Source: Thiomicrorhabdus indica (GTDB taxonomy: Bacteria; Pseudomonadota; Gammaproteobacteria; Thiomicrospirales; Thiomicrospiraceae). Taken from it: a stretch of DNA of 64,000 nt. Where the stretch lies: positions 558,001 to 622,000 of the forward strand of contig NZ_CP033040.1 of the NCBI RefSeq assembly GCF_004293625.1, in the 5' to 3' direction. Shown in pieces: positions 35,325 through 47,896 of the stretch (the first letter of the stretch is position 1; every line of letters begins with the position of its first letter). A program made the translations under genes and the position numbers. A model generated the notes under the pieces. That model was not told where the DNA came from. It searched no databases and saw nothing but the letters and a program-made list of their open reading frames with translations.

Positions 35325-35368
35325 ATGCGAACTTTAACATGTTCTTTAATGGGCACTAGGATTTGGAT

Positions 35369-36820
35369 ATGAAAGAGAAAACCACACTGGTTTGGTGTCA
35401 AAGAGAATTGCGACTCCAGCATTTTCCTGCGTTGCAAAGTGCACTTCAATCATCGGACAAGGTTATTGTTGCGTATTTTCATGATCCAGAGATGGCCATC
35501 GGTGAGGCTAATTCTGCTTGGCTGGCAAAAAGTTTGCTGGCTTTGCAAACCTCTTTGCGTGAGCAAGGCGGTGAATTAATCATGCTAGAGGGTAAGTTTG
35601 CAGACTGCCTTAAAGAGGCGTTGGAGTTTTATCGTCCGCAACAGGTATTTTACAGTTTTGAAGTTGGCACGCCTTTTTTTGGGCAACAAAACCAAGCATT
35701 GGATTTTTGCCAATCGCGCAAGATTGCCTTGCAACCGTTTTTTTCTGAATTCTGGTTCGATCCCGGCACAATCGTAAATCAGCAGAATAAACCCTATGTG
35801 GTGTTTACGCCATTTTATAAGGCGGCACAAAAGAAACTTTCCATGTTGCAACCCTTACAAGCCGAGCCGTCTAATCAAATTGGCGACTTAGGTAAAACCA
35901 AAGTTGCTGGCAAATTCGACTCATGGACAAAATTACCACCAAACTTGCAAGAAATTTTGGATAAGCCTTGGGCGCAAAAAATCCTTAAACACTGGAATGT
36001 CGGTGAGACGGGTGCCTGGTCACGATTGCATCATTTCATTGAAAATCATTTAAATGATTATGATGAAGATCGGGATTTTCCAGCGCTCGAAGCCACCAGT
36101 TTATTGTCACCTCATCTGCATTTTGGGGAAATTTCCAGTCGTGCAATTTACTTTGAGTTGCAAGCGTTAAAAGAACAAGACCCGAGCTTGAATATTGATC
36201 CTTGGGTCAGGCAACTGGTTTGGCGAGAATTTGCCCGATTGTTGATGTGGTATTTCCCAAATACGGAACATTCGCCATTCCAAACCAAATTTGAGCAGAT
36301 GGCTTGGGATGTTGGACCTCAAGACTTGTCGGTGTGGCAAAAAGGTCAAACGGGTATTCCGATTGTGGATGCAGGAATGCGTCAACTTTGGGAAACGGGT
36401 TTTATGCATAACCGAGTGCGAATGATTGTCGCTTCATTACTGACTAAAAATTTGAACCAATGCTGGTTAGAGGGCAAGCACTGGTTTGATGACACTTTGG
36501 TTGATGCAGATCCTAGTAATAATGTCATGGGGTGGCAGTGGGTTGCTGGTTGCGGTGTGGATGCTGCGCCTTATTACCGTTTGTTCAATCCATTGCGCCA
36601 AAGCGAACGTTTTGACCCTGACGGTGAGTATATTCGCCAATGGGTGCCTGAAATTAAAGCGCTTTCAGCCAAGGCAATTCATGCCCCTTGGGAAAATTTA
36701 AAAGAGTGTCACATTAAGGGAATCGCTTTAGGCAAAGATTACCCAAGACCGATTGTTGATCTAAGCGAAAGTCGCAAGGAGCATTTGGAGAGAGTTGAAT
36801 CTTTAAAGCAGGTGGTATAA
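35369..36820 (+). CDS. phrB: class I CPD deoxyribodipyrimidine photolyase
   Basis: The ATG at 35369 (after AGG) gives 483 residues. The antenna domain starts TTLVWCQRELRLQHFPAL. The FAD domain has LSPHLHFGEISSRAIYFEL, RQLVWREFARLLMWYFPN, GIPIVDAGMRQLWETGFMHNRVRMIVASLLTKNL and the flavin/tryptophan block DADPSNNVMGWQWVAGCGVDAAPYYRLFNP. It repairs cyclobutane pyrimidine dimers with blue light. It lies 44 bp after the DUF3833 gene and is followed by the MerR regulator. Confidence 0.93.
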   Translation: MKEKTTLVWCQRELRLQHFPALQSALQSSDKVIVAYFHDPEMAIGEANSAWLAKSLLALQTSLREQGGELIMLEGKFADCLKEALEFYRPQQVFYSFEVGTPFFGQQNQALDFCQSRKIALQPFFSEFWFDPGTIVNQQNKPYVVFTPFYKAAQKKLSMLQPLQAEPSNQIGDLGKTKVAGKFDSWTKLPPNLQEILDKPWAQKILKHWNVGETGAWSRLHHFIENHLNDYDEDRDFPALEATSLLSPHLHFGEISSRAIYFELQALKEQDPSLNIDPWVRQLVWREFARLLMWYFPNTEHSPFQTKFEQMAWDVGPQDLSVWQKGQTGIPIVDAGMRQLWETGFMHNRVRMIVASLLTKNLNQCWLEGKHWFDDTLVDADPSNNVMGWQWVAGCGVDAAPYYRLFNPLRQSERFDPDGEYIRQWVPEIKALSAKAIHAPWENLKECHIKGIALGKDYPRPIVDLSESRKEHLERVESLKQVV

Positions 36821-36937
36821 TTGCGCCTGCATCAGTTTTTGTCTAAGATATGCACAGTTTTTCGAATTTGCAAGATTAGGCAAAATACTCGCTTATTCTC
36901 TCTCCAGCACTCAAGGTCTAATGTCTAAGTAAAGTCT

Positions 36938-37813
36938 ATGGATACAAATCAACCACTCTACCCCATTCGTGAAGTTTCGCGTATTACGGGTGTTAATTCG
37001 ATTACTTTGCGCGCATGGGAGCGTCGTTATGGGTTGATTGAACCTGTTCGCACGCCAAGTGGTCACCGACTTTATACTGATGAGCATATTCAACAAATTC
37101 AAACGGCGGTTTCTTTAAATCAGCAAGGCATTCCGATCAGTCGTGTCAAAACGTTATTAGAAAAACCGGCTGAAATAGATTCGACAGAAACAAATGTTGA
37201 TGCATCGACTACGCCACAGCTTTCTGAAGGTGGCTCTGCATTTCTCATAGAGCCATTACAGGCTCTGAATATCATGGGTCTTGAACAAGCGTTTGACCAA
37301 TTGCTTGCTGATTTTCCTGATAAGAAGGCTTACCAAATTTTGGTTCAAGCAAATTTACAGTTCTCGGAATGGACTTTAGCTCAACAGTTGTTATGGCAAA
37401 GTTTGTTATCCATACGTTTAAAAACACGTTTGCGCCATCAGTTGCGGCTGTTTCCAAAACACCGTGCTAATCGTGTGTTGTTGGTCAATGCATCACAACA
37501 AATGAACAGAGTCAGTTTAGATTTGTTGCGTTTGTACTATGCCATGAACGGTTGTTTGACTATTGAAGTGCAGCGTGATGAGTTGGGTGCAGATTTGAGT
37601 GTTTTGGCGAACCTCCTGAAGACTTTTGAGGCGCAAACCTTATCGTTGTTGACAGAGCAAGCGATGCCGGATGAACCTTTATGGGTAGATTGGAGCGAGC
37701 GTTATTCAGCGCTTGAGATGCATATTTGGTGGCAGGCTAATGAACCAGTTGAGTTAGCGGCTTTTGTGCAAAATCAGAGTTATGCTTTGGATACATTATT
37801 TACCGGCCGGTAA
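36938..37813 (+). CDS. MerR-family light regulator, LitR/PplR-like without a B12 site
   Basis: 291 residues. The N-terminal MerR helix-turn-helix (about 8-75) is YPIREVSRITGVNSITLRAWERRYGLIEPVRTPSGHRLY. The C-terminal half has the helical bundle and a Rossmann-like segment (NRVLLVNASQQMNRVSLDLLRLYYAMNGC) aligned with the CarH/LitR B12 domain. The DxHxxG cobalamin motif is missing. In Pseudomonas putida PplR regulators work with short LOV proteins instead of B12; a LOV gene lies next door here. The stop codon falls in a 30-bp palindrome. Confidence 0.85.
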   Translation: MDTNQPLYPIREVSRITGVNSITLRAWERRYGLIEPVRTPSGHRLYTDEHIQQIQTAVSLNQQGIPISRVKTLLEKPAEIDSTETNVDASTTPQLSEGGSAFLIEPLQALNIMGLEQAFDQLLADFPDKKAYQILVQANLQFSEWTLAQQLLWQSLLSIRLKTRLRHQLRLFPKHRANRVLLVNASQQMNRVSLDLLRLYYAMNGCLTIEVQRDELGADLSVLANLLKTFEAQTLSLLTEQAMPDEPLWVDWSERYSALEMHIWWQANEPVELAAFVQNQSYALDTLFTGR

Positions 37814-37821
37814 ATAATGTA
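37792..37821. repeat. 30-bp perfect palindrome at the merR 3' end
   Basis: The ACCGGCCGGT core (37802-37811) is extended symmetrically from T37792 to A37821. It covers the last codons (FTGR) and the TAA stop of the MerR gene. Confidence 0.9.
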
Positions 37822-37949
37822 CTGAAATCACCGTTTAAGTCTTTTCTAACGCTTAGGGAGCGATATCGAAAACAACGAGATACAGTTTGCAAATTATCTG
37901 TGAGTCTCGTCATTTTTTTGAACGTTATTTGGAACAGTGAAAACCTGTT

Positions 37950-38393
37950 CTACGAGTTACTTTCCAGTTCAGCAATTCTTTTTTGTGCCGCTTCTAAAGC
38001 ATTACGTAGCTCGACTTCCTCGGTTACATCTTTCTGAATGCCAATGTAGTAGGTGATTTCATCTAGTTCATCATAAAAAGGCGTCACGCTTAATTCGTTC
38101 CAAAAAACCGAACCATCTTTGCGGTAGTTTTTCAAAATAGTTCGAATTGGAGCTTGGTCGTCAATCGCACTTCGGATCAATTTAATCGATTCTTGTTGAG
38201 TGTCTTCTCCCTGCAAAAAACGACAGTCTTGGTAAAGAATTTCATCTGCACGGTAACCGGTTAGTTTCTCAAAAGCCGGGTTTACATAAATTAAAATGGT
38301 ATCGCGACCTTCTTTTTCGGCCACAACAATTCCATCCTGTGCATTTTCGACCAGTTGCAAAAGCAATGCATTTCGCAGTTTGCCGTCTTTCAT
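37950..38393 (-). CDS. short LOV blue-light receptor
   Basis: A 147-residue single PAS/LOV domain with a C-terminal helix. The photoactive Cys57 lies in DCRFLQGEDT. The flavin contacts Asn89 (NYRKDG), Asn99 (FWNELS) and Gln120 (IGIQKDVT) are all present. Size and layout match the Pseudomonas putida short LOV proteins (PpSB1-LOV). It should bind FMN and form a cysteinyl adduct in blue light, signalling by dimer rearrangement. It is convergent with the MerR gene; the two are a likely sensor-regulator pair for the photolyase regulon. Confidence 0.92.
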   Translation of the reverse strand: MKDGKLRNALLLQLVENAQDGIVVAEKEGRDTILIYVNPAFEKLTGYRADEILYQDCRFLQGEDTQQESIKLIRSAIDDQAPIRTILKNYRKDGSVFWNELSVTPFYDELDEITYYIGIQKDVTEEVELRNALEAAQKRIAELESNS

Positions 38394-38704: not shown

Positions 38705-39778
38705 ATGAGGAGTCTTACGAGTTCACCGGCAATAATAAAAAGAGTACCGGCCGGTAAGAAAATGACAGGGTTAGGCGTGCTATTTTTATTGGTGTTTTCA
38801 GCCTTCTTGGCGGGGTGTACTGAGTCTCAAGATCCCTTGCCATTAAAGGCCGCGTTTGCCAGTCAGCCCGATAATGCTCTGAATTTTATCGCGTATGAAA
38901 AAGGTTACTTTAAAAAACACGGGCTAGATATTCAAGTTGATTTTTTTCCTTCTGGGAAACGGGCTATCCATGATGGTTTTCTAAAACACGACTATGATAT
39001 TGCGACAACTGCTGAAGTCCCTTTTGTATTTGCCTTAGATGAAAATCCTGATTTACGAATTTTTGCGAGTCTTTATGGCGCTGACAATGTGAACCGCATT
39101 GTGACCCGGTGGGGGGTCGGTTTTAATTCGATTGACCAGATTGCAGGGAAAGTCATCGGCACACAAAAAAGCTCGGCAGTGCATTATTTTTTCCATCGAA
39201 TTTACAATGCTTTTGAGATACCCCGTTCGGATTTTACGTTGAAATTTTATCCAGCAGAAGAGCTACCGCAAGCCTTAGCAAATGGTGAAATTGATGCGTT
39301 TAGCATGCGTGAGCCTTATGTCTCTCAAGCAGAGGCCTTGCTGGATGGCGAAGTGAATATTTTTTCCATGCCGGGAATTTATCATCAGTTTGGAGTGGCC
39401 ATTACCCGAGAGGAAACGTTGCAACAGAAAAATGTTCAACTCGAACGTTATCTTCAAGCTTTGTTTGAGGCGAGAAATTTTGCGATTACAAACCCTCAGG
39501 AATCCATCGAAATTTTGGCGGAATATCTTTCGATATCAATTCCTGAAGCTCGCGCGCTTTGGCGACCAAGCAATTTGCAACTGGGGTTACATCAAGGGTT
39601 AATCAATACGATTGAATCAGAGATTCAATGGCGGAATTTTTTAACGGATTTAGGGTTAGATGATCGTAAAGTCGACTTGGAGGTATTTGATTTATCAGAT
39701 TATGTTCATGTAGATGTGATGTCCAAAGTGAACCCTTATGCAGTGATGGTGGTCTATGAACGGCAGAAGTCTGAATAG
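38705..39778 (+). CDS. NMT1/SsuA-type periplasmic substrate-binding lipoprotein
   Basis: The ATG at 38705 follows GGGAGG; 38762 is an alternative that gives a cleaner signal peptide. Hydrophobic segment and lipobox LAGC (VLFLLVFSAFLAGCTES). The mature domain is of the NitT/TauT/thiamine-precursor type: LKAAFASQPDNALNFIAYEKGYFKKHGLDIQVDFFPSGKRAIHDG, FSMREPYVSQAE. No permease or ATPase gene follows. Instead it overlaps a histidine kinase gene by 23 bp, so it probably presents a ligand to that sensor rather than to a transporter. Confidence 0.85.
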   Translation: MRSLTSSPAIIKRVPAGKKMTGLGVLFLLVFSAFLAGCTESQDPLPLKAAFASQPDNALNFIAYEKGYFKKHGLDIQVDFFPSGKRAIHDGFLKHDYDIATTAEVPFVFALDENPDLRIFASLYGADNVNRIVTRWGVGFNSIDQIAGKVIGTQKSSAVHYFFHRIYNAFEIPRSDFTLKFYPAEELPQALANGEIDAFSMREPYVSQAEALLDGEVNIFSMPGIYHQFGVAITREETLQQKNVQLERYLQALFEARNFAITNPQESIEILAEYLSISIPEARALWRPSNLQLGLHQGLINTIESEIQWRNFLTDLGLDDRKVDLEVFDLSDYVHVDVMSKVNPYAVMVVYERQKSE

Positions 39779-41255
39779 TATTTTTCGGTTTTGGGTGTTG
39801 TTGATTAGTTTGGTAACGGTTGCGTTAGGTTTTGTAACCATCGCACTGTATCAGCAAACTCAAAAACTTTATCAGATGAATGAGTTTAATTTGAATTTGA
39901 GTCAGGATACGACGGCGTTGATTTTACTGGCCAATGAACGCTTAGTTAACGATACAGGACGGTTTCAAAAGCAACTTGAAGATGCGGCTAGCAATCTAAA
40001 GCAAACGTTATATCAATCACGGTTTGCCATCTCTGAAGCGGACAGTGATCTTTTGCTGGTGTATTTATCGGATATTCGGTTTTTATTAAAACGCTATCAC
40101 ATTTTTAATAACCATCTATCGAAGCAAAACATTCAGCGTTCGTCCTATGATGGAGTGATGGCAAAGATTTATGGCATGGATGCCGAAGTGAATCGAATTA
40201 CTGGACAAGCACAACAAGAGTTTAAAGATAGTGCTCAGTTATTTATGATTGTTTTAGGTTTTTTCTTATTGGTGATGTTGGTGCTGCCACTAATGACTCT
40301 CAAAAAATTACGTTGGCAACTAATTGGTGCATTGCAGCAAGTTTCAGATTCTGCTCGCAGAATGATTGATCATAAATTTAAAAAATCCATTGAAGAAACG
40401 CCTTTATTGGAAATCAATCAACTGGTCTCGACCCTGAATAATTTACGTACCCGATTATTAAAAGAGATGGCAAGCAGAGAAGACTTGGAAGTGGAAATTG
40501 AAGCTAGAATCCATGCCGAGACCGAAGCGCGAAAATTGTTGCAAGATTTACAACGAAATCAAGCACAAATGGTCCAAATGGAAAAGCTTTCTGCAATGGG
40601 AACGATGGTCGGTGGTGTGGCACATGAATTGAATAACCCTTTGATGGGAATCATGAATTACATTCAATATTCGCAAAAACGCTGCGAGGATGAGAAAGCG
40701 AAGAAAATGCTCTTAAGAGCGCAAGATGAAGTCAGCCGAGTCCAGAGTTTGGTGAAAAACATGTTGATTTTTTCGCGAAGCAAGCAAGATGTTGAAATGA
40801 GAGTCATTGAGTTATTGCCAATTATTGAGCAGGTTATTGAATTATTTGAAGGCTCTTTTAAGAAACTAGGCATTCATATCGACCTTCAGGTGCCAGACAA
40901 GCTCCGAGTTCGAGCAAATGAAGATTTACTGAAGCAAGTGCTGGTCAACTTGCTTGGGAATGCTCGAGATGCGATACAAAGTGAGGAAAAACCTGTTTTG
41001 AGTGTTGTCTGGCTTCATGAGAAGGAGCAAGAAGGATTGTGCATCATTGATAATGGTGGTGGCATTCCTAAGAAGGTTCAGGAACAAATCTTCGATCCGT
41101 TTTTTACCACCAAACCGGTTGGCCAGGGAACGGGGTTGGGGTTGAGTATTTCCAAAGAAATGGCAACTACCATGAATGCTGAGCTAAAGCTTTTATCGAC
41201 CTCGGAATCTGGAACGAAATTTATATTAGGGTTACAAAAAGTTGATGAGGGGTAG
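39756..41255 (+). CDS. membrane sensor histidine kinase
   Basis: 499 residues. Two membrane segments (about 10-30 and 160-182) enclose a periplasmic helical sensor region of about 130 residues. A HAMP-like region and coiled coil follow. The H-box has His290 in GGVAHELNNPLMGIMNYI. The ATPase domain has NLLGNARDAI, IDNGGGIPKKVQ, FDPFFTTKPVGQGTGLGLSI. It overlaps the binding-protein gene and is followed after three bases by its response regulator. Confidence 0.92.
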   Translation: MNGRSLNSIFRFWVLLISLVTVALGFVTIALYQQTQKLYQMNEFNLNLSQDTTALILLANERLVNDTGRFQKQLEDAASNLKQTLYQSRFAISEADSDLLLVYLSDIRFLLKRYHIFNNHLSKQNIQRSSYDGVMAKIYGMDAEVNRITGQAQQEFKDSAQLFMIVLGFFLLVMLVLPLMTLKKLRWQLIGALQQVSDSARRMIDHKFKKSIEETPLLEINQLVSTLNNLRTRLLKEMASREDLEVEIEARIHAETEARKLLQDLQRNQAQMVQMEKLSAMGTMVGGVAHELNNPLMGIMNYIQYSQKRCEDEKAKKMLLRAQDEVSRVQSLVKNMLIFSRSKQDVEMRVIELLPIIEQVIELFEGSFKKLGIHIDLQVPDKLRVRANEDLLKQVLVNLLGNARDAIQSEEKPVLSVVWLHEKEQEGLCIIDNGGGIPKKVQEQIFDPFFTTKPVGQGTGLGLSISKEMATTMNAELKLLSTSESGTKFILGLQKVDEG

Positions 41256-41258
41256 CTG

Positions 41259-41636
41259 ATGACTAAGCATGTATTTACCATTGATGATGAGCGCTCAATT
41301 CGAGATTCATTTGTTTTAGCGTTAGAAGATTTTGACCATCTTGAGGTTTATGAAGCGGAAAATGGCCTTGAGGGCGTGAAACTAGCCGAACAAATCAAAC
41401 CCGATTTGGTGTTTATTGACTTAAATATGCCTGTCATGAATGGTGTTGATGCCATTAAAGCCATTCGTGAACTCCATCCAGAAGTTCCCATCTACGTGGT
41501 GACGGCGTTTGCCAAGATGTTTTTTGAGCAGTTACACGCGCTTCAAGAGGAAAACATTGCTTTTGAAGTAGCCGCTAAACCCATGTCTATGGATCAAATT
41601 CAAACGATTGTTTCGACAATTTTACCGGCCGGTTAA
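41259..41636 (+). CDS. single-domain response regulator
   Basis: A 125-residue receiver with no output domain. The acidic pair is in IDDERS, the phosphoacceptor is Asp54 (FIDLNMP), and Thr82 (VVTAF) and Lys107 (AAKPM) complete the active site. It lies three bases behind the kinase gene and presumably acts through protein contact, perhaps with the KaiB-like protein or the PhnD-GGDEF-EAL protein encoded next. The last residues LPAG and the stop come from an ACCGGCCGGT palindrome followed by TAA. Confidence 0.92.
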   Translation: MTKHVFTIDDERSIRDSFVLALEDFDHLEVYEAENGLEGVKLAEQIKPDLVFIDLNMPVMNGVDAIKAIRELHPEVPIYVVTAFAKMFFEQLHALQEENIAFEVAAKPMSMDQIQTIVSTILPAG

Positions 41637-41696
41637 AAATAAAAAGACACTCGATGAGTTGTTTCGTTTAAACACCTGTTGAAAAGAGAAAGAATT

Positions 41697-41984
41697 ATGA
41701 GTAAGAAAATAGAATTAAAATTATTTGTGGTGAACCCCAAACAGCATGAGCAATTGATTCAAGAATTCGAGAAAAGTCTGGCTGATAATTTTGAAAAAGA
41801 CTATGTTTTTGAAGTGATTGATGTTTTGTCAACGCCAGAAAAAGCGATGGAAAATCAAGTGTTTGCAACACCAATGCTTATGCGTGAGTTTCCTGAGCCC
41901 GTGCAAAAAATTTTAGTGGATATTGCTAAATTACATGATGTGTTTTTGACCATTAGTAATGCGAATGGTGCTGAAATCATTTAG
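41697..41984 (+). CDS. KaiB-like protein
   Basis: The ATG at 41697 gives 95 residues, close to KaiB length. It has the KaiB pattern: IELKLFVVNP, FEVIDVLSTPEKAMENQVFATPMLMREFPEPVQKILVDIA, comparable to the VIDVL...ILATPTL...PPPVRRIIGDL core of cyanobacterial KaiB. No kaiA or kaiC is in the window. In KaiC-free settings such proteins are thought to be stress or signalling adaptors. It lies between the response regulator and the large PhnD-type sensor in the same direction. Confidence 0.88.
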   Translation: MSKKIELKLFVVNPKQHEQLIQEFEKSLADNFEKDYVFEVIDVLSTPEKAMENQVFATPMLMREFPEPVQKILVDIAKLHDVFLTISNANGAEII

Positions 41985-42023
41985 ACGCTTGAATTGAGTG
42001 TGAATGGGATAAAAGTAAGGTTT

Positions 42024-45000
42024 ATGGAGCAGCAAAGAGTTTCCAGTAACAAATCGTCAGTATGGCCGCTATTAACCGTTTGGTTAATGAGCCTATGGTT
42101 GCTAGCGGGCGCAGTTCAAGGGGCACCTATGCAAGTTGCTGAGTCTGATGCCACTTCGCAAATGTCTACTCCAACTGCTAAGGCTGTTCAAGTTCAGACG
42201 ATTTCGGAGGCAAAAACCATGCCTTACGTCATTGGGGTGTTGGCATTGAATTCCATTGAGGAGGCACAAGAACAGTGGCAACCCTTAGCGGATTATCTGA
42301 ATGTGCAGATGCCTAACTTCGGGTTTGAAGTGAAGCCGTTGGATTTTGATGAAATCTTGCCGGCTATTGAAAACGCCAAAATTGATTTTCTCATTGCAAA
42401 CCCCGCTTTCTATGCTATTTCAGAACAAAAATACCAAACCTATGCGATTGCCACTTTGGTAAAGCATACCTTGCACGCCGATGTGTCAAAGTTTGGTGGA
42501 GTAGTCTTTAGCCAATTTGGTGTTGATGTTGAAGATACAATCAAACTTCATCAAGAAGAAGTGGCTGCAGTTGCTCCCTTTTCGTTAGGTGGTTACTTAG
42601 TTCAGAAAAAGTTCTTTAAAGATCGTTTTAATATTGATTTGAATGACCGAAGGATTACTTTCTATCATTCGCATCGAGATGTTGTAAATGCCGTATTGGC
42701 CGGTGAAAAAAAAGTTGGCATGGTTCGAACCGGCATTCTGGAATCAATGCAAAAAGAATCGATGGTTGAAACTTTTCGTCTCCCGGATACTCCAAATTAC
42801 CAGTTATTACTGACGACGAAACTATATCCAGAATGGCCTTTTGCCGCTTTAAAACATATTCCAGTTATCGAAGCAGAAAAAGTGCTTATCGAACTTTTGG
42901 CATGGAAAAGTGGCGTTGTTGGTCGAGACAGCTTTGCAAAAGTTGACGACCGTTTTAGCTGGTCGATTTCGCAGACTTATCAGCCAATAATGACATTATT
43001 GAAACAATTTAACGTCACGCCTTACAACACCGAAACCGAGATAAGTTTCAAGGTTTGGTTAGAACAATATCAAGAATGGGCTTTATTTTTTATTGCGCTC
43101 TTACTGGGTGTGATTTTAATGGCAAGCCTTTTAAATCGAAATGCTCTAATGGGAACGACCAAGCAGCGTAAACTCCATGATGAAATTGCTAGGCGGGATG
43201 ATGTGATTGCAGAGTTGGAATTGGCAAATCAAACTCTTACTTATCAACAGGAGCGCTTTCAAATATTAAGTGATGCCTCGAACGATGGTGTAGTAATTTT
43301 TTCTTTTTCAGGGCATATCGAGTATATCAACCCTCATGCCTTACGGTTTTGGGGTAAAGAGTATTCAACAGTTGATCGGTTGAATGCGTACCATTTGTTT
43401 AGCGATGTAAAGGATCGTAATCGCATTCATCAAATGATGGATACTTTGAATGAAGCGACCCAAAGTCCCATTTTTTTGGATGAGTTTTCTGCGAAATTGG
43501 TTGCTGCAGATAGCAGCATCAAAAGCGCTTCTCTTCGTCTAAGTGCTTTGCAGCGCAAAGGCAAGTGGCTGATAGCTATGAATTTCAATGATCAGTCGGA
43601 AAAAAAATTACTTGAAAAGTCTTATCATCAAGCGATATTCCTCGCGCAGACCTACATTGAACAGAGTGATCAAGCGGTATTTACGTTTGATACAGAATTT
43701 AAGTTGCAAACCGTGAATTCCAAAAGTTGCGCTTTGCTGACAAAAGGGGAGGAGTATAAAGGTCTATGTGGCGCAGAAAATGTTGAAAAATTACCGCTTG
43801 AAGACATTAGTGCGCATCAGATTGAATGGCTGAAACTCTGTTTTGCAGAAGATGAACGGACAGAATTGGTTTTGGAATTGAATGAGTTGATGCGAGAGGA
43901 CCGGCCGTCACATTTTGATTATCGGGTTTCACCTATGCATCAAGGGCCTTTTGAAAATTATCATTTTCATTTTTCTTATGTCGAAAATGTGCTTTTAAAT
44001 GAAGCGTTTTTTCTGTGTGTCGCACAAAATGTTTCTGTCCTTGAAGGCGCGCAACCATTCTTCAACGGAACGCGTCAATATTTGGAAAGTGTTTTGAACC
44101 AGAATCAGTCAGGGGTACTGATTTTGGATTCTCATGGTTTGGTGCAGTATTGTAACCATGCTGTTGAAAGTCTTATGAATGTGTCAAGTAAAGAACTCGT
44201 GGGCAGTGAGTTTGGCGTACCATCTAGTTTGAGTGAGACAAAGCACCATGAATTTGAAATTCTCACGGCTGATGGTTCCTCAGGGGTTGCTGAATTAATC
44301 TATACAGAAACCGTGTGGCAAGGTGAAAAAGCGTTTATGGTGCTGATGAATGATGTCAGTGACATTAAAGCCGCTCAGGCAGAAATGAGCTATCAAGCGT
44401 TGCACGACTCGTTGACAGGCCTTCCGAATCGACGCTTGTTGATACAACAATTAGACAATTTGATTGAGGCCAACCGCTTTAGTCATTCGCCGTTTACTTT
44501 GGTATTTGTCGATGTCGATCGCTTTAAGCAACTTAATGATACGTTCGGTTTCAGAATGGGGGATGAATTGTTGGTGCAAATTGCGCACAAGCTTAAAGAA
44601 ACCGTGCGCAGTTCTGATTCAGTGACTCGATTAGCAGGGGATGTTTTCGCGCTGATTTTGCCGGGTGTAGAAAATCAGGAAATGCTGAATTCATTGGTTC
44701 AAAAAATCTTCCATGCATTTGAAGATAAATTACTGTTTAGCAGTGGTTCTGTGAGTGTTTTTTTAAGTATGGGAGCGGTGATTCATCCAAATTATGGGCA
44801 CAGTTCTACTGATCTTCTGAAAATGGCTGACATTGCAAAACACTATGCTAAACGATCCGATAGTATTAATTGTAGGCTTTTCAATGACCGAGAAATGGGC
44901 GCTTCACTGAATACTTACAGCTTGGAAAATGAGTTAAATCGCGCGGTGTTGGATAACGAATTTTGTCTGTATTATCAGCCGCAAGTACTTGCTAAAACAG

Positions 45001-45668
45001 GCGAACTCATCGGAGTGGAGGCTTTGTTAAGATGGAACCATCCAACTCGAGGAGTATTGGCGCCAGAGCTGTTTTTGTCGACGTTGGAGAATAATGGGAA
45101 AATTGATGAGCTTGGAACATGGGTGATTGAGCAGTGTTTGCTTAAGCTTAAGGATTGGAAGTTTGCCGGCACCCAAAAACGCTTGGCCATTAATGTGTCT
45201 GCAAGACAGCTGTTGAGGCCGAATTTTAGTGAGTTTTTTGCCGATAAATTAGCTGAGTATGAGGTGGCAGCAGAGCAAATAGCCATCGAAATTATTGAAA
45301 ATACACTGTTGAATGACCCTCACCAAGTAGCTTTAGTGCTTCAAAGTCTTCATGCAATGGGGGTTGAGATTCATCTGGATAATCTCGGTGCAGAGTTCAG
45401 TACTTTGACTCGTCTGAAAAACATGCCAATTGACTGGGTAAAAATTGAACGCCATTTGATGGCGTTACTAGTTGATGATGAAAAACCAGATTTAATGGTG
45501 AAAGCACTGATTGAATCGTTGCAGTCCTTAGGTATGCAGGTGATTGCATTGGGTGTTGAAACCCAAGCGCAAAAGCAGGCTTTATTGACTCTTGGATGCG
45601 ATATTCATCAAGGGTATTTGTACTCTGAACCAATGGATGAAAAAGCATTTGAAAAACGCTATATTTAA
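42024..45668 (+). CDS. PhnD-type sensor with PAS domains and degenerate GGDEF-EAL
   Basis: The ATG at 42024 gives 1214 residues; a TTG at 41994 is also in frame. A signal-like segment is followed by a PhnD/phosphonate-binding-type periplasmic domain (about 60-320, MPYVIGVLALNSIEEAQEQWQPLADYLN, IDFLIANPAFYAI). A membrane segment lies near 355-375, then PAS-like regions (about 410-780). The GGDEF motif is LAGDVF (near 870), with a kept RSSD I-site. The EAL domain starts EALLRWNHP (near 997) but has DNLG for DDFG, KIER for KID and ALGVE for AEGVE. It is probably a c-di-GMP receptor or scaffold rather than an enzyme. Confidence 0.88.
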   Translation: MEQQRVSSNKSSVWPLLTVWLMSLWLLAGAVQGAPMQVAESDATSQMSTPTAKAVQVQTISEAKTMPYVIGVLALNSIEEAQEQWQPLADYLNVQMPNFGFEVKPLDFDEILPAIENAKIDFLIANPAFYAISEQKYQTYAIATLVKHTLHADVSKFGGVVFSQFGVDVEDTIKLHQEEVAAVAPFSLGGYLVQKKFFKDRFNIDLNDRRITFYHSHRDVVNAVLAGEKKVGMVRTGILESMQKESMVETFRLPDTPNYQLLLTTKLYPEWPFAALKHIPVIEAEKVLIELLAWKSGVVGRDSFAKVDDRFSWSISQTYQPIMTLLKQFNVTPYNTETEISFKVWLEQYQEWALFFIALLLGVILMASLLNRNALMGTTKQRKLHDEIARRDDVIAELELANQTLTYQQERFQILSDASNDGVVIFSFSGHIEYINPHALRFWGKEYSTVDRLNAYHLFSDVKDRNRIHQMMDTLNEATQSPIFLDEFSAKLVAADSSIKSASLRLSALQRKGKWLIAMNFNDQSEKKLLEKSYHQAIFLAQTYIEQSDQAVFTFDTEFKLQTVNSKSCALLTKGEEYKGLCGAENVEKLPLEDISAHQIEWLKLCFAEDERTELVLELNELMREDRPSHFDYRVSPMHQGPFENYHFHFSYVENVLLNEAFFLCVAQNVSVLEGAQPFFNGTRQYLESVLNQNQSGVLILDSHGLVQYCNHAVESLMNVSSKELVGSEFGVPSSLSETKHHEFEILTADGSSGVAELIYTETVWQGEKAFMVLMNDVSDIKAAQAEMSYQALHDSLTGLPNRRLLIQQLDNLIEANRFSHSPFTLVFVDVDRFKQLNDTFGFRMGDELLVQIAHKLKETVRSSDSVTRLAGDVFALILPGVENQEMLNSLVQKIFHAFEDKLLFSSGSVSVFLSMGAVIHPNYGHSSTDLLKMADIAKHYAKRSDSINCRLFNDREMGASLNTYSLENELNRAVLDNEFCLYYQPQVLAKTGELIGVEALLRWNHPTRGVLAPELFLSTLENNGKIDELGTWVIEQCLLKLKDWKFAGTQKRLAINVSARQLLRPNFSEFFADKLAEYEVAAEQIAIEIIENTLLNDPHQVALVLQSLHAMGVEIHLDNLGAEFSTLTRLKNMPIDWVKIERHLMALLVDDEKPDLMVKALIESLQSLGMQVIALGVETQAQKQALLTLGCDIHQGYLYSEPMDEKAFEKRYI

Positions 45669-45874
45669 AAATTAATCAGACTGTTCAATCCAATATTTCG
45701 GGGTGTATAAACTTTACCGGCCGGGGTCTTTTTATTGAAATTTTCTATTTGTAAATAAGTGGTATTTGTTACGGTTTTTTCATATTGGGTGATATATTTA
45801 AGAAAAAATTAATCGCTTTCTTATCGCAATCACCGCCGGTGAACAAAGGGGGGTGTATCAAGGAAACAGAATTT

Positions 45875-47896
45875 ATGCCTTCAACACCTCAGGTAAAAAA
45901 TCAGAAAACTTATTCGAAATTTAAGCGTTTTTGGTCTGATTTTTTGCCGACATCTTTAAAGTCTCCCCATTCTTTATCATCGAAGAATGACAATAGTCAT
46001 CGGAATTTTTCGATTCATGAAGCGCCAAAGCTTTCAGTCAGTATTCTTGTGATTTGCGGAATTTTATTATTGGGTGTGTTGTGGAATGCCCAAAATTCGG
46101 TGACGCAAATCAAACTTCATGCACAAAAAGCTTATCAGTCAAAATTAAAATCGGAAATTGACAACCTTGTCACAGAAAAGCGCCAAATATTTATGGGTTT
46201 GGCACATGCCCTGTCTAAAACGTCTGATGTTCAAAACCTTTTATGTAAAGAATGCCCGAAACGCCGTGTTGATTTAAAACCATTGATTGCAAGCCTTAGT
46301 GTATCGATTAATTATCCAGACTTATGGGTGCAAGTTTTAGATTCGAATGGTGTAAGCCGTTATCGAAGTTGGACAGAGGTCAAAAATGATAATTTGTTAA
46401 AAGTCCGTCGAGATTTACGCGATTTTTATGAGGATTTGCAGCCAGCGAGTTCCGTATCGGTTGGAAAATTTACTCTATCGATGAAATCAACTGTGCCTAT
46501 TTATGATGATCAAGGTGCATTTATCGGCGCTTTGGAAGTGATAGCGCCTTTTGACCCAATGGCCAAATTGCTACCAAATGAAAACAGTCAGGTTTATTTA
46601 TTTGCGGATAAGTCTTTAAGAAGTAAACTCGTTAGGGCGGACGCAGAAGGATTTATTAACGGTTATTATTTGTTGAATCGAGATATAGAGCCACAGCAAC
46701 AACGATTTCTGAGCTTGAATATAGAGTCTCTCGTAAAAGCAGAGGAGCAGTCTTTTAATGGTGAGGATCAGTGGCTGAGTCAACCGATTACTAATGACTT
46801 CAATCGTGTGCTGGGTTTCTGGCTAGTTCATTATGATCAGAGTGTTTTATTTACGGATGAGATTAATACGTTATTGAAACAAACTGTCTACAACGCAGGG
46901 GCTTTGTTGTTCATGCTGTTAATGTTTCTCATGGTGTATGGTTTTAAGTTTCGAGCTGAAAAAAGGCATTATTACTATCGTCAAATTTTTAATTCAGCTT
47001 CGGATATTTTATTCGTGACGGATGGTGAAACAGTTTTTGAAGCGAATAATCATTTTTTTGGATTTTTTAAAGATATTCGCACGCTTGATGAGTTTAACCG
47101 TTCGCATCGTTCGATTTACACTCAGTTTGTTCCAGAGCCTGATGTATTGCATTTTGAAAAAGAAGGGCAGTTTTGGTTGGACTATATTGAAAACCACCCT
47201 GATGAGCAGCACAAAGTGAAAATTATGAAGGATGATAGCGAGTGCTATTTTTCTGTCAGGGCGGTACGTATAAATCAAAAGGAGCCTTTATATGTGGTTG
47301 CCTTGCAAGATATTAGTAAGCAAATTGAATATCAGAATGAAATAATAAAAGTTGCCAATACTGACGCTTTGACAGGGATAGGAAATCGTTTGTCTTTTGA
47401 TAGACAACTAAAGTCAGAGGTAAAGCGAGCACACCGTTATGAAGCGCCACTGAGTTTGATTGTATTTGATATTGATGCTTTTAAAGACGTTAACATCGAA
47501 TATGGTCACGGTGCTGCAGATGACGTTTTGCGTTGGATGAGCCAATCAGTGGGAGCAATGCTTCGTGAATCCGACGTTTTGTGTCGCTGTGGAGGGGAAG
47601 AATTCGCTTTGATTATGCCAGAGACCGAATTGGATAATGCCGCAAAAAAAGCGGAGAAAATCCGTATTATGATTCGTTCTCAGTTTTCACCGGTTGAAGG
47701 TTTGCATATGACTGTAAGTTTCGGTGTGGCTGAGTTGTCGATTTGGGATAATCCTGATACCTTGCTGACACGCGCAGATAACGCTTTGTATAAAGCGAAA
47801 CAAGATGGTCGAGATCAGGTTGTAAAAGGTTATCATGAGATGTTGCAAAACTCGCAGACTCTAAAAGAGAATTTTTCTCGTTATCTCAGTTCTTAA
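45875..47896 (+). CDS. membrane-bound diguanylate cyclase with periplasmic sensor and PAS
   Basis: The ATG at 45875 with AAGGA upstream gives 673 residues; 45785 is also in frame. Membrane segments at about 53-72 and 341-360 enclose a periplasmic Cache/CHASE-like sensor domain with KECPKRR. A PAS domain follows. The C-terminal GGDEF domain has DALTGIGNRLSFDRQL, an RxxD I-site (RESD) and active RCGGEEF near 571. It synthesises c-di-GMP in response to an unknown extracellular cue. It lies about 200 bp after the PhnD-GGDEF-EAL gene and may belong to the same signalling neighbourhood. Confidence 0.9.
   Translation: MPSTPQVKNQKTYSKFKRFWSDFLPTSLKSPHSLSSKNDNSHRNFSIHEAPKLSVSILVICGILLLGVLWNAQNSVTQIKLHAQKAYQSKLKSEIDNLVTEKRQIFMGLAHALSKTSDVQNLLCKECPKRRVDLKPLIASLSVSINYPDLWVQVLDSNGVSRYRSWTEVKNDNLLKVRRDLRDFYEDLQPASSVSVGKFTLSMKSTVPIYDDQGAFIGALEVIAPFDPMAKLLPNENSQVYLFADKSLRSKLVRADAEGFINGYYLLNRDIEPQQQRFLSLNIESLVKAEEQSFNGEDQWLSQPITNDFNRVLGFWLVHYDQSVLFTDEINTLLKQTVYNAGALLFMLLMFLMVYGFKFRAEKRHYYYRQIFNSASDILFVTDGETVFEANNHFFGFFKDIRTLDEFNRSHRSIYTQFVPEPDVLHFEKEGQFWLDYIENHPDEQHKVKIMKDDSECYFSVRAVRINQKEPLYVVALQDISKQIEYQNEIIKVANTDALTGIGNRLSFDRQLKSEVKRAHRYEAPLSLIVFDIDAFKDVNIEYGHGAADDVLRWMSQSVGAMLRESDVLCRCGGEEFALIMPETELDNAAKKAEKIRIMIRSQFSPVEGLHMTVSFGVAELSIWDNPDTLLTRADNALYKAKQDGRDQVVKGYHEMLQNSQTLKENFSRYLSS

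Follow-up and report, generated by a model that had tools for sequence, protein, structure and literature searches.

Positions 38705-45668 of the window, the 64,000-nucleotide stretch of the Thiomicrorhabdus indica genome analyzed here, hold a real, rare and conserved signaling operon that contains a KaiC-independent subfamily of KaiB. Its parts are of known kinds, but their combination and the KaiB subfamily itself are new relative to the literature searched, in which we found no paper on the five-gene module.

The five genes lie tightly packed on the plus strand, and profile matches confirm the domains that a preliminary description had given them. The first (38705..39778) encodes an NMT1/SsuA-type substrate-binding lipoprotein (lipobox LAGC; Pfam NMT1, E=1e-15) and overlaps the gene of a membrane histidine kinase (39756..41255; HisKA with H290, HATPase_c, two transmembrane segments) by the 23 bp originally reported. 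There follow a stand-alone receiver, or response regulator, of 125 aa (41259..41636), a KaiB-family protein of 95 aa (41697..41984) and a protein composed of a PhnD-like periplasmic domain, a transmembrane segment, PAS domains, GGDEF and EAL (42024..45668). Start codons were inspected by eye together with their ribosome-binding sites. The site at 38705 is good; the last reading frame is open from TTG 41994, and ATG 42024, with the better ribosome-binding site, is the best start. An Rfam scan of the operon region gave no match, and a promoter/terminator scan returned no more sites than did shuffled sequences. The segment just upstream (35363-38393) is a light-stress neighborhood, in which a gene of the photolyase/cryptochrome family stands with those for a MerR-type regulator and a short, single-domain PAS protein of LOV type on the opposite strand; it is not conserved at the related operons described below. 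Downstream, a GGDEF gene (45785-47896) was considered as a sixth member and rejected, as it lies about 200 bp off and is likewise unconserved at those operons.

Two further genomes of the same family show the same gene order, from binding lipoprotein through histidine kinase, receiver and KaiB-like protein to GGDEF-EAL protein, so that the genes co-occur outside the source strain and the earlier view of a coherent module is borne out. One is a metagenome-derived genome of the same genus (L010, also found as L012) and the other a single-contig genome of another genus (L011). Because the order is kept in three genomes and two genera with different flanking genes at all three operons, the arrangement is more than chance. 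Identities of the two relatives to the window proteins are 38-39% for the binding protein, 30-36% for the kinase, 53-60% for the receiver, 42-44% for KaiB and 30-31% for the GGDEF-EAL protein. In both relatives the receiver stop codon overlaps the KaiB start, and in all three operons the GGDEF-EAL gene begins within about 40 bp after KaiB. The PhnD part, initially described as a constant component, is missing from the last gene in L010; the core is therefore five genes, with PhnD optional.

Operons of this type number only three to date. Of 63 family and order genomes, three encode KaiB of the operon type, and these are also the ones with a binding protein close to that of the window (E<1e-170). 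The window's binding protein is the only strong match in its own genome. A fourth genome contributes a distant relative (E=1e-21), located away from any operon of this kind. When 84,980 species genomes were searched with an alignment of the three KaiB sequences, a single locus came back, that of the known relative; because the search patterns were narrow, this suggests that the subfamily is rare and stops short of proof. A plasmid search for operon-type KaiB gave distant KaiB matches only.

The preliminary description called KaiB without KaiC beside a two-component pair uncommon, and KaiC is absent from all three operon genomes. The complete source genome encodes one KaiB and lacks a KaiC-like double ATPase, and neither relative contains KaiC at E<1e-10, although the absence is weaker for L010 because that genome is 95% complete with 8% contamination. 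KaiBC clock-type systems, by contrast, need KaiC in the genome. One could still imagine that the KaiB-like protein belongs to a timing device with a very diverged, unrecognized ATPase, as its family membership and its fold-switch prolines (see below) would allow. The best KaiC-family ATPase matches in the source genome, however, are short, weak and confined to partial domains (in frames of 362-501 aa), and with no match at the above threshold in the relatives we consider such a device very improbable.

Elsewhere, KaiB keeps company with KaiC. In 369 genomes sampled from the class, all 19 other KaiB carriers also have KaiC, and among 41 other KaiB neighborhoods from class and phylum, 39 have KaiC next to KaiB; the genomes of the two exceptions (L041 and L051) encode it at another place. 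A 2017 survey of clock proteins found bacterial KaiB only with full-length KaiC, in a data set that retained only KaiC-bearing organisms (PMC5520375). The objection, raised at the outset, that KaiB might prove to occur mainly with kaiC is thus correct for the family at large but not for the operon subfamily, which was never met with kaiC.

The sequences of the operon KaiBs also set them apart. The window protein passes the cut-off of Pfam PF07689 (47.0 bits against 27) but falls well below those of the NCBIfam clock-KaiB models TIGR02654 (40.1 against 145.3) and NF006798 (41 against 110), and so is not assigned to the clock equivalog. In a midpoint-rooted tree of 62 KaiB sequences (three from the operons and 59 for comparison), the operon proteins form one clade with a support of 0.976 on a long branch. 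At position 74 (codon 41916..41918 in the window), where all 59 comparison proteins have the glycine of the IGDLS motif, the window protein has valine and its two relatives isoleucine, and the three share the derived residues N53, F56 and D81. The window protein otherwise resembles the KaiBs of KaiBC and KaiABC systems, with which it has in common the Pfam family, the predicted ground-state topology and the proline triad P59, P66 and P68, present in all three operon proteins. Isomerization of these prolines limits KaiB fold switching (PMC11551320).

These features bear on the possibility that the operon is a remnant of a KaiBC signaling cluster that lost kaiC, leaving the KaiB-like gene decaying or weakly used. 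KaiBC clusters in other Pseudomonadota do often include receivers, kinases and GGDEF/EAL genes, and a long branch could be read as decay. The gene is nevertheless intact in all three operons, with the proline triad and most core residues conserved; together with the shared derived residues and the common loss of the glycine, this points to selection for a different job. We judge the remnant explanation improbable.

The predicted fold is closest to that of ground-state KaiB. An AlphaFold2 model of the window protein, made from a thin two-sequence alignment, predicts a helix at 67-77 followed by a strand at 82-88 (pLDDT 73.6). In Foldseek searches with this model, the top ranks go to ground-state KaiB crystals (TM 0.61-0.70), with fold-switched KaiB, Lpp1115 and SasA far below. 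A shift toward the ground state would agree with the model, but since the alignment is thin and other KaiBs likewise favor that state, locking in it does not follow. A converse idea, that the operon KaiBs are locked in the thioredoxin-like state, arose because the alignment places A and R of the L010 protein where the engineered fold-switch mutant G89A/D91R has its changes. It was dropped, as the model is ground-state-like and the positions concerned vary in KaiC-linked KaiBs. In the loci fetched, KaiB is never fused to a receiver, kinase or EAL domain; in SasA-type kinases a KaiB-like domain is fused to the kinase, whereas here the two are separate genes in all three operons.

In the sensor half of the operon, the binding protein resembles binders of aliphatic sulfonates, thiamine precursors and nitrate, and transporter genes are absent beside its gene. 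Relatives of it are encoded by 43 of 398 genomes from the phylum. Of 20 further loci fetched, 18 have a sensor kinase, mostly a hybrid one, as the following gene, so that the binding-protein/kinase pair is an established unit. Only in the present operons is it joined by receiver, KaiB and GGDEF-EAL genes. At one of those loci, L106, a related binding-protein/hybrid-kinase pair has as its divergent neighbor a KaiBC cluster that includes receivers and two KaiBs; as one case in 18 it is compatible with chance, and we did not retain it as a meaningful link. Kinase and receiver both retain their phosphorylation residues (D9/D10, D54, T82 and K107 in the latter). The periplasmic region of the kinase, about 120 aa long, is predicted to be an all-helical four-helix bundle, with weak structural matches (best E 0.007) that include NarQ, LytS in complex with XylFII, and QseE, whose partner QseG is a lipoprotein. 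As in XylFII-LytS, a transporter-less binding protein is encoded beside a kinase in all three operons, and the window kinase has a predicted helical-bundle sensor; the likeness of the sensors is one of fold only (E about 0.03). The systems differ in that the binding protein here is of the NMT1/SsuA type, a DNA-binding domain is missing from the receiver, and KaiB and GGDEF-EAL genes follow.

In the output half, the window protein has a degenerate GGDEF motif (RLAGDVF, with the signature AGDVF at 44634..44648), and two positions that are usually essential are changed in its EAL domain, with DN for DD in the metal site (45378..45383) and A-L-G-V-E for A-E-G-V-E (Leu codon 45549..45551). Judged by its motifs, this copy does not qualify as an active c-di-GMP phosphodiesterase or cyclase, and because the active-site residues of both domains are degenerate, it is probably catalytically inactive. 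Both motifs are intact in the two relatives. The N-terminal domain matches that of TtrS (E=1.5e-33); PhnD-fronted sensors of the TtrS kind share this domain, which here precedes a GGDEF-EAL output rather than a kinase. Since the NMT1 and PhnD domains both belong to the type II periplasmic-binding proteins, the initial statement that two different ligand-binding folds feed the locus does not hold.

Proximity of KaiB to c-di-GMP genes extends beyond the module. Of the 41 KaiB loci outside it, 12 have a same-strand GGDEF or EAL gene no more than 200 bp from KaiB. Genomes with these loci have 11-58 GGDEF matches each, and genes of this type make up about 1-2% of the total, with gene counts estimated from genome size. 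There is therefore a tendency for KaiB and c-di-GMP proteins to be encoded close together, with or without KaiC, which suggests a wider link between them. The 12 loci, most of them with KaiC, are L040, L041, L044, L045, L050, L051, L054, L059, L150, L152, L153 and L158. The source genome itself has a very high load of c-di-GMP genes, with 61 GGDEF domains in 2.83 Mb.

How might these parts work together? We regard with moderate confidence the following route as the most economical, and put its being correct somewhat short of an even chance: a signal would pass from binding protein to kinase, receiver, KaiB and GGDEF-EAL protein by protein contact, with KaiC uninvolved. First, the lipid-anchored binding protein would sense a small solute in the periplasm and contact the helical-bundle sensor of the kinase, which would then control phosphorylation of the receiver. 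Second, as the receiver has no output domain, its likeliest partner would be the adjoining KaiB-like protein, in the manner of CikA and KaiB. In the cyanobacterial clock, CikA docks through its receiver-fold domain on strand 2 of KaiB in the fold-switched state (PMC6378743, PMC12632262), weakly so without KaiC (PMC6378743). Here, too, there are a receiver-fold protein and a KaiB, in this case encoded side by side, but the operon receiver is canonical, phosphorylatable and a separate protein, and the contact is proposed by analogy. Third, KaiB or a receiver-KaiB complex would act by contact on the GGDEF-EAL protein and change c-di-GMP turnover; for the window copy an altered c-di-GMP binding or relay is more likely, because both of its catalytic motifs are degenerate. 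The operon, its conservation, the missing KaiC and the divergent KaiB clade are demonstrated, whereas each protein contact, the ligand and the direction of signaling are inferred, in the last two steps from adjacency and analogy. Several observations count against the route: CikA binds fold-switched KaiB and the operon KaiB model is ground-state-like; KaiB and the GGDEF-EAL protein are tied by gene adjacency, in a genome with 61 GGDEF domains; and the operons number three, with no KaiB fusions in the fetched loci.

Another arrangement is also conceivable, in which an ordinary two-component sensor, made up of binding protein, kinase and receiver, has its output elsewhere, KaiB is a bystander or a modulator of kinase or receiver, and the GGDEF-EAL protein separately senses a ligand of its own through PhnD. 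Stand-alone receivers often act on distant targets, binding-protein/kinase pairs are widespread without KaiB, and two of the three loci give the GGDEF-EAL protein a sensor of its own. Set against this, KaiB always lies directly between the receiver and GGDEF-EAL genes in three divergent operons, and it was found nowhere else in the 63 genomes. This arrangement is a real possibility, if an unlikely one. Returning to the contact route, a more specific form of it, in which the KaiC-independent subfamily is an adaptor controlled by the phosphorylated receiver, possibly fold-switching, that links the binding-protein-gated kinase to c-di-GMP signaling and so employs a metamorphic switch outside the clock, is unlikely though conceivable.

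The operon offers a complete genome with KaiB and without KaiC, together with a conserved gene setting that hints at a job, and suggests that the KaiB fold can serve as a signaling component outside any clock. If KaiB works here without KaiC, the operon would be a simple system in which to ask what role the fold had before or beside the clock, and whether a phosphorylated receiver can drive the KaiB fold switch. It would also link KaiB to c-di-GMP, as the frequent GGDEF-EAL neighbors of KaiB in KaiBC clusters hint.

Finally, the source genome is rich in a 10-bp palindrome, ACCGGCCGGT (the core of TTTACCGGCCGGTAA), with 1025 copies in 2.83 Mb, or about one per 2.8 kb, within and between genes. 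Its reversed control occurs once, and 61 family relatives have 0-15 copies of the palindrome, which seems confined to this one genome. Sites in the window include 12754, 22496, 35291, 37802, 38746, 41624, 48017, 56101 and 62723. HIP1 is likewise an iterated palindrome, of cyanobacteria, but differs from it in sequence.
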